Shown here in pieces: positions 15,123 through 62,553 of a stretch of DNA of 64,000 nt. Every line of letters starts with the position of its first letter. The stretch's first letter is position 1. The notes under the pieces were generated by a model. The model worked only from the letters and a program-made list of their open reading frames with translations, was not told the DNA's origin and searched no databases. A program made the position numbers and the translations under genes. The DNA is from Gemmatimonas aurantiaca T-27 (lineage in GTDB: Bacteria; Gemmatimonadota; Gemmatimonadetes; Gemmatimonadales; Gemmatimonadaceae), in contig NC_012489.1 of the NCBI RefSeq assembly GCF_000010305.1, positions 2,115,646-2,179,645 of the forward strand, given 5' to 3'.

Positions 15123-15181
15123 CATACCCGGAGCGGGACTCGAACCCGCACGACCTTGCGATCAGGGGATTTTAAGTCCCC
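15123..15181 (-). repeat. Left attachment site, tRNA-Leu 3' fragment
   Basis: 59 bases identical to 57875-57933. They comprise the anticodon loop and 3' strand, the variable arm, T-arm and acceptor 3' strand of tRNA-Leu. The D-arm and 5' end are missing, so this is the displaced original 3' end and not a working tRNA. Identity stops at 15182 (T versus C). Confidence 0.95.
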
Positions 15182-23256: not shown

Positions 23257-23522
23257 AAGACCGCCTCCTCCTCAAAGACGCGACCACGTATCGCGTCCGT
23301 ACCCTCGACGGCAAAGAACACGTTGCCGACTGGGATGATGCACACCGGCAGTTTCTCAAGCCCTACGAGAAACGGCAGCGCGGCCCGGCGATCATCCCGT
23401 TCGACCTGATCGGCGCGGTCACCACCCACCGACGCGGACGGCCTCGCTGGTACCCGCTGGACGATTGCTATCGGGCGGCGACCGTCGCCCGCACACCCTC
23501 AACACGGAGTAACGCAGCATGA
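23253..23522 (+). CDS. Hypothetical small phage protein
   Basis: 89 residues from ATG 23253. KDATTYRVRTLDGKEHVADW suggests a small beta domain, with a basic middle. It overlaps the SSB start. Unrecognised. Confidence 0.5.
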   Translation: MKDRLLLKDATTYRVRTLDGKEHVADWDDAHRQFLKPYEKRQRGPAIIPFDLIGAVTTHRRGRPRWYPLDDCYRAATVARTPSTRSNAA

Positions 23523-23986
23523 GCCGTTCAAAGAACCTCGCGATTTTGATTGGCAACGTGGGGCAGGATCCGGAAGTCCGCACGGTCGGCACCGGCGGCC
23601 GCGTCGCCCAGTTCTCGCTGGCCACGGGCAAGCAGTGGACCGACGCGCAGGGCAATAAGCAGGATGCTACACAGTGGCACCGGTGCGTCGCGTGGAACCA
23701 GGGCAAGTACACGCTCGCCGACATCGTCGAGAAGTACGTCCGCAAGGGTGAGAAGATCTACGTGGAAGGCGAGATCGAATACCGGCAGTGGCAGGACAAG
23801 GACGGGCAGACGCGGTACACCACGGAGATCCGGGTCAGGGAGTTGATGTTGTTGGGGGGGAAGTCGGAGGGTGGAGAAGTGAAGCAGGAGCGGCCGGCCA
23901 AGACTACGCGGCCCAATACGACAGAGCGCGCGGACGACTTTCCGGCGGCGCTGATGGATGACGACGATTCCTCTTTGCCTTTTTGA
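23519..23986 (+). CDS. ssb: Single-stranded DNA-binding protein
   Basis: 155 residues. OB-fold SSB signature: KNLAILIGNVGQDPEVR, FSLATGKQW, WHRCVAWNQGKYTLADIVEKYV, KGEKIYVEGEIEYRQWQDKDG. A variable linker leads to the conserved acidic tip DDDSSLPF, which recruits partner proteins. It coats single strands at the phage fork and starts the replication block. Confidence 0.95.
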   Translation: MSRSKNLAILIGNVGQDPEVRTVGTGGRVAQFSLATGKQWTDAQGNKQDATQWHRCVAWNQGKYTLADIVEKYVRKGEKIYVEGEIEYRQWQDKDGQTRYTTEIRVRELMLLGGKSEGGEVKQERPAKTTRPNTTERADDFPAALMDDDDSSLPF

Positions 23987-23988
23987 CC

Positions 23989-24198
23989 ATGCCGAAGATC
24001 ACTTCCAAGTACGAGCTCCGCCGCGTGATCCAGCAAGGCGAGACGATGGCGGCCCTGCTCCGTCGTCCGGGTCACACCCAACGTTCGCTCGGGGAACGCG
24101 AGAAGTGCGCGGAACTCATCGAGTCGCTGTGTGATGTGGCGCGCCGCGCGTTTGATCCGGCCCACGAGCTGCCAGAACTCCCAGCCAAGGCGGGATGA
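23989..24198 (+). CDS. Hypothetical small phage protein
   Basis: 69 residues from ATG 23989. Basic and helical, lying between SSB and the replicative ATPase. Unrecognised; position suggests a replication accessory. Confidence 0.5.
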   Translation: MPKITSKYELRRVIQQGETMAALLRRPGHTQRSLGEREKCAELIESLCDVARRAFDPAHELPELPAKAG

Positions 24199-24199
24199 C

Positions 24200-25387
24200 G
24201 TGAAGGACCGCATCGACTGCCTCGATGTCGATATGGACGGGCGGGAGTTCACGCGCTGTGCGTACTGTGGCGAGCGTACGAACCGACTCCCGCCGGCAGG
24301 CTGGGATCGGCTGTCGGCGCTGTACTGCGAGGCGCACGAATCACTCAAGGGGCGCGACCCGCAGTTCGTGATCCCGCAGGCGATCGGTGACGCGGTGGCT
24401 GACCTGCGCCGCCCAGCATCCGAACTGATCGACTGGTCGCTCCCTGAAATCACGGACCTGGCTGGCTACCTGCTGCCTGGCACCGTGACGTATGCCTGCG
24501 CGTTCCCGAAGGGCGGCAAGACGACATTCCTCTCCAACCAGATGGCGCACTGGGACCGCACCGGGCGCCGCGTCTGGGCTATGCCGACCGAATCACGCCC
24601 CAAGGGGCTGGTCACACGCCTCGCGTGCTTTCGGGTCGGCGTCGCGCCGGATGAGGCGATGTCGCGCCGTCTGCGGGTGCGCGCGGACGCTGGGGACACC
24701 GACGCCGAGCAGCAACTGCGGGCGCTGTTCAGCGAGTTTGACCGCATGCTGGCGGGCGTGGAAGCGGACGGCTGCAACTACGCCATCGAGCCCTCTCCGC
24801 GCCTCACGCGCACCACGTTCCGTCGTTCGTGTCAGGCAGCGGCCGAGGGCGGATACGAGTTGGTGGTCGTCGACCACGTGGATCACATCGGCGGCGATCC
24901 GGGCACCGGCGAGTCGGGCTACGCAGCGAGCGAAGCGGTGCAGCACGACGCTCTGGAGTTCGCGGAAACGTTTGACATCGCCGTGCTCCTGATGTCGCAG
25001 TTCAACACGCGCATCGCCAAAGATCCGCTCGCGATGTTCAAGCGCCCGCAGACCGATTGGTTGTGGATGAAGGGCGTGAAAGATCAGGTCGCAACGACTA
25101 TGTTTGGCCTCTACCGGCCGATGGCGCCGGATCTGGAAGATTCACTCGTCCAACGTGTGCGCACCGGGGACGAGGAGCCGTGGAAAATCGCATTGCCGAA
25201 CACGATGGGGCTGGCGGATATGGCCTCGCGGTTCGGTGGCTCAAAGATCGGCCGCACCACCCACATCCAGTACGACCACGGGATCCTGCGCAGTTTGCCC
25301 GCCAGTGATGCGTTCACGATCGAGGCTGCGTACAACGGCATCCACACCGGCAGCCCGTCAGACCGACCCAGCCGGAGGATTCGGTAG
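24200..25387 (+). CDS. RecA-fold ATPase, probable replicative helicase
   Basis: 395 residues from GTG 24200. Residues 1-40 carry a Cys pair and a later Cys/His (CAYC...YCEAH), a possible zinc site. From about residue 75 a RecA-like domain starts: LPGTVTYACAFPKGGKTTFLSNQ is the P-loop region, with Ala where the first Gly is usual. YELVVVDHVDHIGGDPG is Walker B, and AVLLMSQFN is the sensor strand. This is the AAA_25/DnaB-like class used by phages as replicative helicase or ATP-driven loader. It lies between SSB and the initiator, supporting a fork role. Confidence 0.75.
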   Translation: MKDRIDCLDVDMDGREFTRCAYCGERTNRLPPAGWDRLSALYCEAHESLKGRDPQFVIPQAIGDAVADLRRPASELIDWSLPEITDLAGYLLPGTVTYACAFPKGGKTTFLSNQMAHWDRTGRRVWAMPTESRPKGLVTRLACFRVGVAPDEAMSRRLRVRADAGDTDAEQQLRALFSEFDRMLAGVEADGCNYAIEPSPRLTRTTFRRSCQAAAEGGYELVVVDHVDHIGGDPGTGESGYAASEAVQHDALEFAETFDIAVLLMSQFNTRIAKDPLAMFKRPQTDWLWMKGVKDQVATTMFGLYRPMAPDLEDSLVQRVRTGDEEPWKIALPNTMGLADMASRFGGSKIGRTTHIQYDHGILRSLPASDAFTIEAAYNGIHTGSPSDRPSRRIR

Positions 25388-26265
25388 TGGCACGGATTCG
25401 CACGATCAAGCCCGAGTTCTGGCAGGACGAAAAGCTCGTCGGCCTGCCGGATGTCACGCGCCTGCTGTTCCTGGGGCTCGTGTCGCTCGCCGATGACGCG
25501 GGGCGGTTGCTGGACAAGCCGGTAAAAATCGAGGCGGATCTATTCGACGGGGAGCAAGACCGGCGCCGCGAGGTCGTGGAATCTCTCGCGAATCTCTCGC
25601 GAATCGGGGTGATTCGACGCGGTTTCACGGCCTCCGGTCAGCGCATCATCGAAATCACGAATTGGAAACGGCACCAGCGTGTTGATCACCCAAACTACGC
25701 GGCGTCGTTCCCGGAAATCGTTACGCCGTATGAGGATACGCCAATTCGCGAGGCATTCGCGAATCATTCGCGAGAGATTCGCGAGGCGCTCGCGAGCCAT
25801 ACCAACGACCTACGACCAGTACCAACGACCAGTACCAGTACCAACGACCTGTTCTCCGGCGTCGCTGACGCGCCACCGGCGCCGCAGATCGTGCGGGCGC
25901 CTCGACCACGCAACGGCCCGCAGTTCCCGCACTTCTCCCGCGATCGGTGCGACGCCATGCACGCGACGTGGGTGTCCACCCGGGGTGCGGTGGAGTACGG
26001 CCGGTTCCGCAAAACGATCGGCCCGCTGTTCACGATTGCCGAAGCCGATCGACCACCGGAAGCGCCCACCGACGCGGAGCTGGCCGACGCGCTGCGCAGC
26101 TTCGCCGAGATGGCGGGCATCGGTGCCGAATCGCGCTTCGCGACGATCGACCGCGCGGCGCAATGCCTCGCCGAGATCGCCCGCACCCGCCGCCGCTTCG
26201 CCACCGACCCCATCGCGCGCTCGGACGCCGTCATGCGCATCATCCACGGGAAAGCCGCCGCATGA
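25387..26265 (+). CDS. Phage replication initiator (lambda O-like)
   Basis: 292 residues from GTG 25387. The N-terminus MARIRTIKPEFWQDEKLVGL, TRLLFLGLVSLADDAGR and ITNWKRHQRVDHPNY match the widespread phage replication protein family with a winged-helix DNA-binding domain. The C-terminal third is a separate helical domain, probably a helicase-contacting part. Its gene holds 11-bp tandem iterons between the two domains, as the origin lies inside gene O in lambda. A Thr/Ser/Pro-rich linker (VPTTSTSTND) joins the domains. Confidence 0.75.
   Translation: MARIRTIKPEFWQDEKLVGLPDVTRLLFLGLVSLADDAGRLLDKPVKIEADLFDGEQDRRREVVESLANLSRIGVIRRGFTASGQRIIEITNWKRHQRVDHPNYAASFPEIVTPYEDTPIREAFANHSREIREALASHTNDLRPVPTTSTSTNDLFSGVADAPPAPQIVRAPRPRNGPQFPHFSRDRCDAMHATWVSTRGAVEYGRFRKTIGPLFTIAEADRPPEAPTDAELADALRSFAEMAGIGAESRFATIDRAAQCLAEIARTRRRFATDPIARSDAVMRIIHGKAAA
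25581..25602 (+). repeat. 11-bp iteron pair within the initiator gene
   Basis: Two adjacent copies of ATCTCTCGCGA, sharing the TCGCGA core and 11-base pitch of the larger array 140 bases downstream. Confidence 0.7.
25744..25798 (+). repeat. Five tandem 11-bp iterons, candidate phage origin
   Basis: Units at 25744, 25755, 25766, 25777 and 25788: ATTCGCGAGGC, ATTCGCGAATC, ATTCGCGAGAG, ATTCGCGAGGC, GCTCGCGAGCC. Eleven bases is not a multiple of three, so the period is set at DNA level, not by a protein repeat. One unit is about one helical turn, placing all sites on the same face. Confidence 0.75.
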
Positions 26266-53324: not shown

Positions 53325-53516
53325 ATGGAACAGATCCGACCACGCGACACCGTACTCCCGATGTATCCGCTGGGCTCGAGGAAATTCGCCGGGGGCCGCA
53401 TCGGCCCCACCCGCCAGACGAGCACCGGCACGACGTTGCGGTTGGTGGCCGTCGTCGGCACCGCCGCGCTCAAGATCACCACCGTGCAGCCGCCCGTGGG
53501 GCCGAGGGTGGCGTGA
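53325..53516 (+). CDS. Hypothetical small phage protein
   Basis: 63 residues from ATG 53325. Basic, Gly/Thr-rich. The upstream gap contains a perfect 8-bp inverted repeat (CGCCGCCC at 53243-53250 and GGGCGGCG at 53258-53265) without a U-run. Unrecognised. Confidence 0.5.
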   Translation: MEQIRPRDTVLPMYPLGSRKFAGGRIGPTRQTSTGTTLRLVAVVGTAALKITTVQPPVGPRVA

Positions 53517-54265
53517 ATCCTCTCATCAAACCCGAGCGCGCGGCGTTGCTGGAGACGGTGACGTTCGCCGTCGGTGGGCACGCGAGAGCGCAGGACGCGT
53601 ACTGCGTGATGGAGGCGGTGGCGTACATCGCCGGCGAACCGTGGAGCGATCAGCCCCAGTGCGTGTCGCCCGTGATCGCGGCGTTCTGCCGCAACTGGAA
53701 CGACAATCTGCCGGAGCCGCCGCGTACGGAACTGCTGCGTCCCTTGGTGCCGTTGCTTATGGGCACGCGCACGACAGAGGGTGACGAGCAGACACGCGCA
53801 TGGATGGCGACGGATTGGCTTGCGCGTGTGCAGACGCCGGCGTGGTTGCGTCTCGCTGGGCTCACCGCCGAAGCGCAGGCGATCGAGGCGTGTGCGCGGA
53901 TCGTGGACGCGACAACGGCGCGTGCGGCACAGCCGGCGCTTGATGATGCGCGCACGAAAGCGGCCGCTGCGAGGGCCGCTGCGAGGGCCGCTGCGTGGGA
54001 CGCTGCGTGGGACGCTGCGAGGGCCGCTGCGGGGGCCGCTGCGGGGGCCGCTGCGAGGGCCGCTGCGTGGGACGCTGCGTGGGACGCTGCGGCGGCCGCT
54101 GCGAGGGACGCTGCGTGGGACGCTGCGAGGGCCGCTGCGGGGGCCGCTGCGGGGGCCGCTGCGAGGGACGCTGCGTGTCAGAAGCTCGCGCCGACCGTCA
54201 CTGAATTGCAGGCCAGTGCGGTCGAGTTGATCCGTGCGATGTGCGAAGTCGGGAGGGCATCATGA
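53513..54265 (+). CDS. Conserved phage protein with Ala-rich tandem repeats
   Basis: 250 residues from GTG 53513. The N-terminal domain (VMEAVAYIAGEPWSDQPQC, VSPVIAAFCRNWNDNLP, EQTRAWMATDWLARVQTPAW) is a conserved family I recognise from many phages and actinobacteria but cannot name a function for. It is followed by a long helix of tetrapeptide repeats (AAWD, AARA, AAGA) from a 12-bp DNA repeat, then a short end. Repeat number probably varies between strains. Confidence 0.7.
   Translation: MNPLIKPERAALLETVTFAVGGHARAQDAYCVMEAVAYIAGEPWSDQPQCVSPVIAAFCRNWNDNLPEPPRTELLRPLVPLLMGTRTTEGDEQTRAWMATDWLARVQTPAWLRLAGLTAEAQAIEACARIVDATTARAAQPALDDARTKAAAARAAARAAAWDAAWDAARAAAGAAAGAAARAAAWDAAWDAAAAAARDAAWDAARAAAGAAAGAAARDAACQKLAPTVTELQASAVELIRAMCEVGRAS
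53966..54169 (+). repeat. 12-bp coding minisatellite
   Basis: Seventeen full tandem 12-bp units (GCTGCG + AGGGCC, TGGGAC, GGGGCC, AGGGAC, GCGGCC variants), plus a partial eighteenth. Units keep the reading frame. A larger repeating block (two WD-type units, an R, two G, an R) is visible, as if blocks were duplicated. Confidence 0.9.
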
Positions 54266-56518: not shown

Positions 56519-56736
56519 TGCCGCCGAGCGCGGGGGAGCTGCGGGCCACCGTCTCGAAAGCCACCTACACGATGGCGGAGGTCGCGGTGCTCTTTGGTGT
56601 CGCACGCCAGGACGTGTATGGCATGCCCGCGGTGATGGCGTGTCGTATCCGTCGGGTGGGCAAATCCCGCGTCCGCTACAGCAAGGCCAAGATCGACGCG
56701 TTGCTCGGGATTGAGCCGCTGCGAGCTGCCGCATGA
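56518..56736 (+). CDS. HTH_17 / excisionase-like protein
   Basis: 72 residues from ATG 56518. TYTMAEVAVLFGVARQDVYGM, then RRVGKSRVRYSKAKIDALL, matches the DNA-binding domain of small Xis/HTH_17 proteins. It overlaps the integrase start, the usual site for a directionality factor. Confidence 0.7.
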   Translation: MPPSAGELRATVSKATYTMAEVAVLFGVARQDVYGMPAVMACRIRRVGKSRVRYSKAKIDALLGIEPLRAAA

Positions 56737-57869
56737 TGAGCCCGTGGCGGAAGCAGGGGCGCCCCGGGTTCGTGCTGCGCGTCTACGCGGGTGAGGCGCA
56801 CAAGGTCTGCGGGTGCGGCACCACGCTGCAGACGGTCGCCGACGACGTGGCCGAGTGGGTGGAGAAGCTACAGCAGTCGCCGAACGCGCAGGCGGTGGCC
56901 GTGCTGCGCGCCATCGTGGGCGAGGAGATCACGCTGGCGAAAGCGTACGAGTTGGGCACTGAGGGGACGCTGGCCTATCTCGCCGCGCAAGCGGAGGCGG
57001 CCCAGGACATCGACCTCCTGCCCCACCTCACCGCGTGGCACGTCATCAAGGGCAAAGCCGCGCGGGGGGCCGCGTCGGCTGACCGGTATCTGATCCAGAT
57101 TCAGGCGCTGTTTCCCGAGGCCCCGCTGCGCCGCTCTTTGCTCACGGCGCCGATCGTGGCCGCGCGACTGGACGAGCTGGACGTCCCGAGCGATGCCACC
57201 CGTAACCGGTACCGGGCCGCGCTGTCCACGTGGTGTCGGTGGCTGATGCGTCGAGGGATACTGGAGAGCAACCCCGCGCAGAGTGCTGGCGGCTACAGCG
57301 AGCCGCTCAAGGCGATCCGGTTCCGGTCGATGACGCAGGCACAGGCGGTGATCGAACGGCTGGCGGACCCGGAGGACCGGGCGCGCGAGGCGCTGATGGC
57401 CGGCACGGGCATGGACTGGTCGGATGTGGCCCGGCTGCGCCGGCAGGATATCGACCTGTCGGGCGACCTCCCCACGGTGCGATGTGATGGCAGCAAGACG
57501 CCGTGGCGCAACCGGGTCATTCACATCACGCAGCCGTGGGTACTCCCGTATTTCACGCCGTGGCTGCGCGGCAGGCTCCCGGGCGCCCTGCTGTTCTCGT
57601 GGGGCAATCGGGCCGCCCTGATGCGGCACTACGCGGCGTGCGATGCCGCCAAGGTGCCACGGTTCAAGATTCACGAGTGGCGGGACACGTATGCCGTGGC
57701 CGAACTGCAGGCCGGCGAACGTCCCGAGGTCGTGGCCCACCAGCTGGGGCATAAAGACGCCTCGCTCGTGTGGAAACGCTACGGCCGATACATCCCGCAG
57801 GCCCGCGATTACCGGGCCTCGCGCACTGCTACCCAAACTGCTACCCGGACCATACAGGAGGCGCGGTGA
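56733..57869 (+). CDS. int: Tyrosine integrase
   Basis: 378 residues. An N-terminal arm-binding/core-binding region (to about 190) and a catalytic domain. Present are Lys255 (CDGSKTPWRNR), His314-x-x-Arg317 (KIHEWRDTYAV), His340 (HQLGHKD) and the nucleophile Tyr350 (WKRYGRYIP). The usual first arginine (TG-x-R) is replaced by Asp228 in AGTGMDWSDV. It recombines attP with the tRNA-Leu 3' end and lies 5 bases from the right att core. If Asp228 truly stands at that place, activity may be altered or the active arginine lies elsewhere. Confidence 0.85.
   Translation: MMSPWRKQGRPGFVLRVYAGEAHKVCGCGTTLQTVADDVAEWVEKLQQSPNAQAVAVLRAIVGEEITLAKAYELGTEGTLAYLAAQAEAAQDIDLLPHLTAWHVIKGKAARGAASADRYLIQIQALFPEAPLRRSLLTAPIVAARLDELDVPSDATRNRYRAALSTWCRWLMRRGILESNPAQSAGGYSEPLKAIRFRSMTQAQAVIERLADPEDRAREALMAGTGMDWSDVARLRRQDIDLSGDLPTVRCDGSKTPWRNRVIHITQPWVLPYFTPWLRGRLPGALLFSWGNRAALMRHYAACDAAKVPRFKIHEWRDTYAVAELQAGERPEVVAHQLGHKDASLVWKRYGRYIPQARDYRASRTATQTATRTIQEAR
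57826..57847 (+). repeat. Putative integrase arm site, P arm
   Basis: 22 bases identical to 15274-15295, with two CTGCTACCC units 12 bases apart. It lies at the end of the integrase gene, 27 bases from the right att core. Confidence 0.6.
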
Positions 57870-57874
57870 ACGTG

Positions 57875-57933
57875 CATACCCGGAGCGGGACTCGAACCCG
57901 CACGACCTTGCGATCAGGGGATTTTAAGTCCCC
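57875..57933 (-). repeat. Right attachment site within tRNA-Leu
   Basis: 59 bases identical to the left site. It supplies the 3' half of the intact tRNA-Leu gene, so integration rebuilt the tRNA. Confidence 0.95.
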
Positions 57934-57959
57934 CGCGTCTACCATTTCGCCATCCGGGT
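57877..57959 (-). tRNA. tRNA-Leu (UAA)
   Basis: 83 nt. 7-bp acceptor stem (ACCCGGA/TCCGGGT), D-arm, anticodon TAA in loop ACTTAAAAT, long variable arm (class II), T-arm GCGGG-TTCGAGT-CCCGC, discriminator A. CCA is not encoded. The prophage target. Confidence 0.97.
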
Positions 57960-62420: not shown

Positions 62421-62553
62421 AAAGGCGCCAGCGGCGCCGTTCTCAGATTGTAGCGACGCGCTGGCCTGCCGACAAGCCGCCCGAACGTTGGCCGGCAGTG
62501 TACCCGCGGTGGACCCGGTGTGGACCCGGTGCGGACCCGCAGTAGACCGGAAC

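Follow-up and report, generated by a model that had tools for sequence, protein, structure and literature searches.

Genomic context of the initiator gene

The window analysed here (a stretch of 64,000 nucleotides, positions 2115646-2179645 of the single-contig, 4,636,964-base genome of Gemmatimonas aurantiaca T-27) contains a gene for a 292-aa replication initiator, whose GTG start overlaps the stop codon of a helicase gene (Table 1). A resolvase-like gene, a terminase and a P22-type portal lie downstream. The initiator gene sits in an apparently complete prophage, bounded by two direct repeats of 59 bp and therefore about 42.8 kb long. The integrase-like gene close to one of these repeats scores just below the curated cut-off of PF00589 (25.9 against 27.1 bits). 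Relatives of the upstream ATPase were sought in viral contigs and none was confirmed.

Table 1. Features of the prophage and of the candidate origin (window coordinates).
Feature	Position	Strand	Basis
Left attachment repeat of the prophage	15123..15181		59 bp identical to 57875-57933
Single-strand DNA-binding protein (SSB) gene, upstream of the initiator gene	23519..23986	+	PF00436 9.6e-33
DnaB-like/RecA-fold helicase gene, adjoining the initiator gene	24131..25387	+	PF13481 AAA_25 4e-8; phrog_19 DnaB-like helicase 6e-14
Replication initiator gene, 292 aa	25387..26265	+	PHROG matches and AlphaFold model
Two iterons at 11-bp pitch, CTCGCGAATCT CTCGCGAATCG, in the recognition-helix codons	25586..25602		Exact TCGCGA spacing; place occupied in many relatives
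Asp100 codon (residue after H-Q-R-V), which tracks the third base of the core	25684..25686	+	N-domain alignment by core
Five tandem 11-bp iterons, core [T/C]TCGCGA, in the linker	25745..25799		Exact spacing, shuffles, genome scan
Short-period strand-asymmetric array ACCAACG/ACCTACG/ACCAGT, 6-7 bp, G-rich on the minus strand	25800..25850		TRF rows
Tyrosine-integrase-like gene, beside the right tRNA-Leu repeat	56733..57869	+	PF00589 E 9.8e-6, 25.9 bits
Right attachment repeat, overlapping tRNA-Leu (57877-57959)	57875..57933		59 bp identical to the left copy

The initiator is predicted to consist of an N-terminal winged helix, a disordered linker and a C-terminal helical domain (AlphaFold pLDDT above 90 for most of residues 11-110 and below 50 for residues 144-183), the predicted recognition helix being helix 60-73 of the model (E-S-L-A-N-L-S-R). 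Over its N-domain the protein matches three PHROG profiles annotated as replication initiation protein (phrog_2149, 16167 and 1408, with E-values of 2.1e-25, 2e-25 and 1.5e-23, respectively), and all three are matched by 30 of the 30 relatives scanned. The initiator has no Pfam match, and a profile search of its N-domain against PDB sequences found nothing. The C-terminal halves differ among the relatives, some of them matching DnaT or Phg_2220_C, in line with a host- or helicase-specific role for that part of the protein.

Some relatives combine the initiator N-domain with an HNH nuclease. In L016 the N-domain is joined to an HNH domain alone (88-579), and an HNH is inserted behind the N-domain in L014 (1501-2577, by profile) and in L007 and L110 (3001-4122 and 1501-2580, both by sequence). 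This layout resembles that of Odn, the origin-directed nuclease of phage ICP1, and suggests that such fusions may be nucleases directed at rival origins. In the named phages L108 (689-1489), L444 (56-802), L448 (648-1004) and L454 (455-1000), an annotated HNH endonuclease gene lies directly upstream of the initiator gene.

Two clusters of 11-bp iterons

Within the initiator gene, the hexamer TCGCGA begins at 25586 and 25597, then at 25746, 25757, 25768, 25779 and 25790, with a spacing of exactly 11 bp inside each cluster; an eighth, isolated copy is found at 26138. A preliminary description of this DNA had reported five tandem 11-bp units and an upstream pair with the same pitch, and both clusters were recovered with exact steps. 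Linker units one to four have the core TTCGCGA and the fifth has CTCGCGA, as described; the upstream pair reads CTCGCGA too. Also as described, the 11-base period breaks the codon frame, the units passing through all three codon phases. The upstream pair had been placed between the two protein domains together with the tandem units; it lies instead in the codons of the predicted recognition helix.

This arrangement is not due to chance. Five TCGCGA pairs at spacing 11 occur in the gene; among 20,000 synonymous-codon shuffles the maximum was three, 17,380 had none, and only one equalled the lag-11 score of the gene. Across the entire host genome, TCGCGA-N5-TCGCGA was found five times, always in the initiator gene, and the 11-bp-spaced triple is confined to the linker; the reversed control pattern has zero occurrences. 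At the density of the window, chance alone would give about three such pairs in the whole genome, so it is the clustering, and not the total, that is striking. A host-wide motif, such as a highly repeated palindrome, was considered and rejected, given that the pitched pair is restricted to the initiator gene and that single TCGCGA hexamers are found in the window at the expected frequency (53 observed, 50.8 expected from a Markov estimate).

Other tandem repeats are present in the window. Positions 53962-54175 hold 17.8 copies of a 12-bp unit (GGCCGCTGCGAG) encoding an alanine-rich repeat, in a 250-aa ORF (53513-54265) without a Pfam match. Outside the prophage, at 62498-62548, there are about 4.6 copies of an 11-bp unit (GTGGACCCGGT), which is unrelated in sequence to the TCGCGA iterons.

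Conservation of the iterons across relatives

Relatives of the initiator were found by protein searches and scans covering Gemmatimonadota, IMG/VR contigs and named phages, and about 240 non-redundant relatives form the comparison set. One comes from a Gemmatimonadales genome, and those in named phages belong to phages of Mycobacterium, Gordonia, Propionibacterium, Pseudomonas, Bordetella, Vibrio, Klebsiella, Paenibacillus and Escherichia. Most relatives follow the same plan, with near-palindromic cores at an 11-bp pitch (10 bp in a few) in both places of the gene and with differing core words; cores of odd length are used in both orientations.

Over 82 non-redundant genes, 11 was the strongest lag (mean z of 3.0 relative to synonymous-codon shuffles), with lag 22 reaching 2.3, and in 48 of these genes the lag-11 signal was significant at p<=0.01. 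Lags 5 and 10 (mean z of 1.75 and 1.57) are attributed to the short array described below, and lags 9, 12 and 13 gave mean z values of about 0.4 or lower. Additionally, 131 of the 240 initiator genes yielded TC-N2/3-GA cores at a pitch of 10 or 11, whereas 462 equally long control stretches taken up- and downstream yielded none. The remaining relatives (about 45%) have other cores, or none detected by this test; other pitched words are built, for instance, around TGCAAG, TACCGTA, AACGTTA, GGGAAAC and CCTAGC.

The preliminary description had named the loss of the repeat in close homologues as an observation that would speak against its reading. The three closest relatives (L003, L004 and L027) have all retained the two clusters along with the spacers and the short array; the core itself is unchanged in L003 and L004 and swapped site by site in L027, where the protein has changed too.

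The two clusters are also tied to each other. Counted as shared 7-mers, the recognition-helix codons (nt 130-215 of the gene) score 8.62 against the linker (nt 300-480) of their own phage, compared with 4.13 +- 0.45 for linkers of other phages with like GC and a maximum of 5.78 in 2000 permutations, and the sharing of flanking gene parts with the linker is little above the permutations. This same-phage sharing of 7-mers is not explicable by local slippage or by neutral expansion of the linker. The sites in the helix codons have recurrent centres (166.5, 177.5, 188.5 and 199.5; 180, 191, 202 and 213 in the group of the window). In L085 and L098, TCGCGA is found at a pitch of 10 in both clusters (gene nt 135-145 and 339-359), so that the pitch appears to be set per phage.

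A loop residue that tracks the third base of the core

When the N-domains were aligned by core, the residue following H-Q-[RK]-[IV] (residue 100 in the window, with its codon outside both iteron arrays) was the one that best separated the cores. In the enlarged set, TCGCGA cores go with D in 56/56 cases and TCGACGA and TCGCCGA cores with D or E in 18/18, which makes 74/74 for cores beginning with TCG. TCACTGA and TCACGGA cores go with N (14/14), and TCCGGA with S in seven of eight cases, the exception being L116, with Q (L314, with two sites in an HQNPH protein, was judged probably spurious and left out of this count). L202 and L215 (S-H) have TCCGGA/TCCGTGA and TCCAGTA sites. The TCCAAGA core goes with D in 7/7, mostly as D-K-P-Q, so the relation between residue and base is not a complete code; a strict code, with residue 100 fixing base 3, is weakened by this group.

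As related sequences are not independent, these associations had to be examined on a tree, which was built from few columns, the loop and the iteron-coding helix having been excluded. It calls for 14 substitutions of the third base and for 16 at the residue. In supported independent pairs, switches between G and another base agree with those between D/E and another residue in 5-6 of 6 (sign test p 0.03-0.06), A with N in 3-4 of 4 and TCCGGA with S in 3 of 4, never in the opposite direction; only the comparison of G with D/E approaches significance. A held-out scan agreed in 21/21 cases, all with D/E loops, and is therefore little test of the relation. The held-out Gordonia phage Gsput1 has N together with TCACTGA; it belongs to a set of 14 named phages fetched later, in which TCGCGA is the core wherever D is present and a core is detected.

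L027 is the cleanest single case of an apparent joint switch of core and residue. It is 59% identical to the window protein over the aligned part, all seven sites have changed from CGCG to CCGG with the pitch unchanged, and D100 has become S, the following H-P-N being unchanged. The accompanying changes in the helix (A-N to R-R, and R to G) are dictated by the change of the DNA core. Such covariation between core and loop lends indirect support to specific binding of the iterons by the initiator.

A short strand-asymmetric array behind the iterons

Directly behind the fifth iteron begins a second kind of repeat (ACCAACGACCTACGACCAGTACCAACGACC...), which the preliminary description had not mentioned. 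A tandem array of period 5-8 is found behind the iterons in 100 of 211 genes and in one of 413 control stretches at a stringent cut-off (128/211 and 3/413 at a milder one), at a median distance of 14.5 bp from the last core. The units are mostly G-rich, namely AACAGGGG and its variants (period 8, mainly in the actinobacteriophage group), AAGGG (period 5) and AACAGGG (period 7), and the G-rich strand is usually the coding strand, the other strand being used in some groups, that of the window included. The period does not simply track the host, as Gsput1 has a 5-bp form and other Gordonia phages an 8-bp form.

An AT-rich unwinding element is absent beside the iterons (AT of 0.40-0.45 in the window, compared with 0.75 in lambda), and the family mean behind the iterons is about 0.43-0.45. 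We infer that the short array may be the site of strand opening or of helicase loading.

A proposed replication origin inside its own initiator gene

Taken together, these observations lead us to propose, with a probability of roughly 0.85, that positions 25586-25850 are the replication origin of the prophage, located inside its own initiator gene and probably used by the binding and opening scheme outlined here. The winged-helix domain of the initiator would bind the near-palindromic iterons, two in the codons of the recognition helix and five in those of the linker, and their spacing of one helical turn would align successive initiator molecules along one face of the double helix. Immediately after the wing, the loop H-Q-R-V-D100-H-P-N would help to read the core. 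The resulting nucleoprotein array would then open the adjoining short-repeat tract, which would stand in for an AT-rich unwinding element; with help from the C-terminal domain, the DnaB-like helicase encoded next door would be brought onto one exposed strand.

An initiator-bound origin inside its own gene, as the preliminary description had it, thus stands as the best-supported reading, on the strength of repeat conservation in distant relatives, covariation of core and protein, and uniqueness in the genome. These patterns are read directly from the sequences, and it is from them that we infer binding, helical phasing of the bound protein, opening, helicase recruitment and the start of replication. 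As in iteron-type origins, tandem repeats of fixed pitch are linked to an initiator gene. The GC skew of the window has no break near 25.7 kb and so gives no independent sign of an origin.

Comparison with known origins

The preliminary description had called the protein lambda O-like and the layout that of lambda with a different repeat. The first holds only loosely: there is no direct profile similarity to lambda O (hhalign probability of 0.2% between the initiator family and the lambda O N-domain), and the two meet only through the shared intermediate profiles phrog_5810 and phrog_345. Lambda O was absent from the structural comparison, which is neutral on kinship either way. As to the layout, what agrees is an initiator with an N-terminal DNA-binding and a C-terminal domain, a helicase or helicase-loader gene adjoining it, and iterons in the same place of the gene (nt 349-433 of lambda O, nt 359-413 here), followed by a strand-biased tract. 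The repeats themselves differ, lambda having 18-bp iterons at a pitch of 20-24 bp and an AT-rich tract (AT 0.75), whereas the pitch here is 11 bp, the AT-rich tract is missing and there are extra sites in the recognition-helix codons.

In the RepA_N plasmid initiators of pSK41 and pTZ2162, a winged-helix N-domain binds boxes in the centre of rep, the origin encoding the central linker, and the C-terminal domain is host-specific (PMC5703833). The linker array has the same position, its predicted boxes being central in the initiator gene and in linker codons. RepA_N structures are also the top Foldseek entries for the model (4pt7/4pql, E 0.03-0.06), with Z of 6.8-7.4, values common to many winged helices. 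However, the RepA_N family PF06970 matched neither the window initiator at E<=1 nor any of 30 relatives at E<=0.1, and the poly-A tract on which RepA_N iterons converge (PMC7145576) is absent here.

Other systems share single aspects. In PLE RepA and ICP1 Odn, the DNA-binding domain of the initiator varies with the origin, and a phage nuclease has borrowed an initiator domain (PMC8263062). The covariation of initiator and origin, and the borrowed domain, are paralleled by our family and its N-domain-HNH fusions, but that origin is non-coding, with iterons of about 30 bp and a RepA_N protein. At Bacillus subtilis oriC, the DnaA-trio and the DnaD recognition element form a short strand-asymmetric repeat beside initiator boxes that directs strand-specific loading (PMC10201434). 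The adjacency is alike, and a similar role may be supposed here, although proteins and motifs are different and the elements are of 3 or 4 nt there and arrays of 5-8 bp here. On these comparisons, the locus would work like the lambda ori and the RepA_N origins, which appear to be its closest functional analogues; by the tests made, it is not shown to belong to either.

Alternative explanations of the repeats

The repeats could be operators, through which the initiator or another winged-helix protein regulates transcription of the replication operon, the origin lying elsewhere. The winged-helix fold is generic, the structural matches are mostly regulators of the Fur/Zur/MarR type, and autoregulation is common among initiators. 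Nevertheless, the sites form two clusters 200-410 nt into the coding sequence of a gene that is assigned to replication initiation families; a short-period array adjoins them in the same place across the family, and the origins of lambda and of pSK41 (PMC5703833) occupy that place. We thus regard operators as improbable.

Far less credit can be given to neutral tandem duplications in a tolerant, disordered linker. The linker does have low pLDDT and slippage can expand short arrays, but a well-folded helix more than 130 bp upstream shows the phage's own core again, at the same pitch, all seven sites of L027 switch core together, the core tracks a loop residue encoded outside the arrays, and odd-length cores appear in both orientations. 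The synonymous shuffles and the cross-cluster test led us to reject both neutral slippage and selection at the protein level. It is equally hard to believe that the repeats were selected as a repetitive peptide: linker peptides such as IREAF and IREAL are somewhat alike, but a unit of 11 bp running through all three frames cannot give a periodic peptide, the signal is destroyed by synonymous shuffles, and the L027 peptide differs while the DNA pitch stays. A partition (centromere-like) site, suggested by the 8-bp direct repeats that are parS in some mycobacteriophages (PMC7157519), is very unlikely in a prophage with an integrase-like gene and chromosomal att repeats, with no ParA/ParB among the scanned genes next to the array.

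Implications for the phage family

Beyond the origin proposed for this prophage, the relatives may represent a large and widespread class of phage origins, to which we would give slightly less than even odds. In such a class, iterons one helical turn apart would occupy two parts of the initiator gene, one of them the recognition-helix codons, and a G-rich array of 5-8 bp, opened or read as single strand, would replace the AT-rich element; natural switches of specificity would depend for the most part on a single residue of the loop (D/E for G, N for A, S for C), so that compatible origin-initiator pairs could be predicted from the protein sequence. Our search of the open-access literature turned up no account of such an architecture for this initiator family. 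In one group of mycobacterial prophages with RepA-like initiators, Wetzel et al. found no repeats and suspected the origin just upstream of repA or in the gene (PMC7157519).

The present analysis offers a concrete predicted origin for hundreds of phages, including laboratory mycobacteriophages and phages of Gordonia and Pseudomonas. The natural switches of specificity between close relatives would make DNA reading by the initiator accessible to single-residue swaps, and the predicted architecture invites one to ask by what means a tract rich in G, and not in AT, would be opened at an origin.
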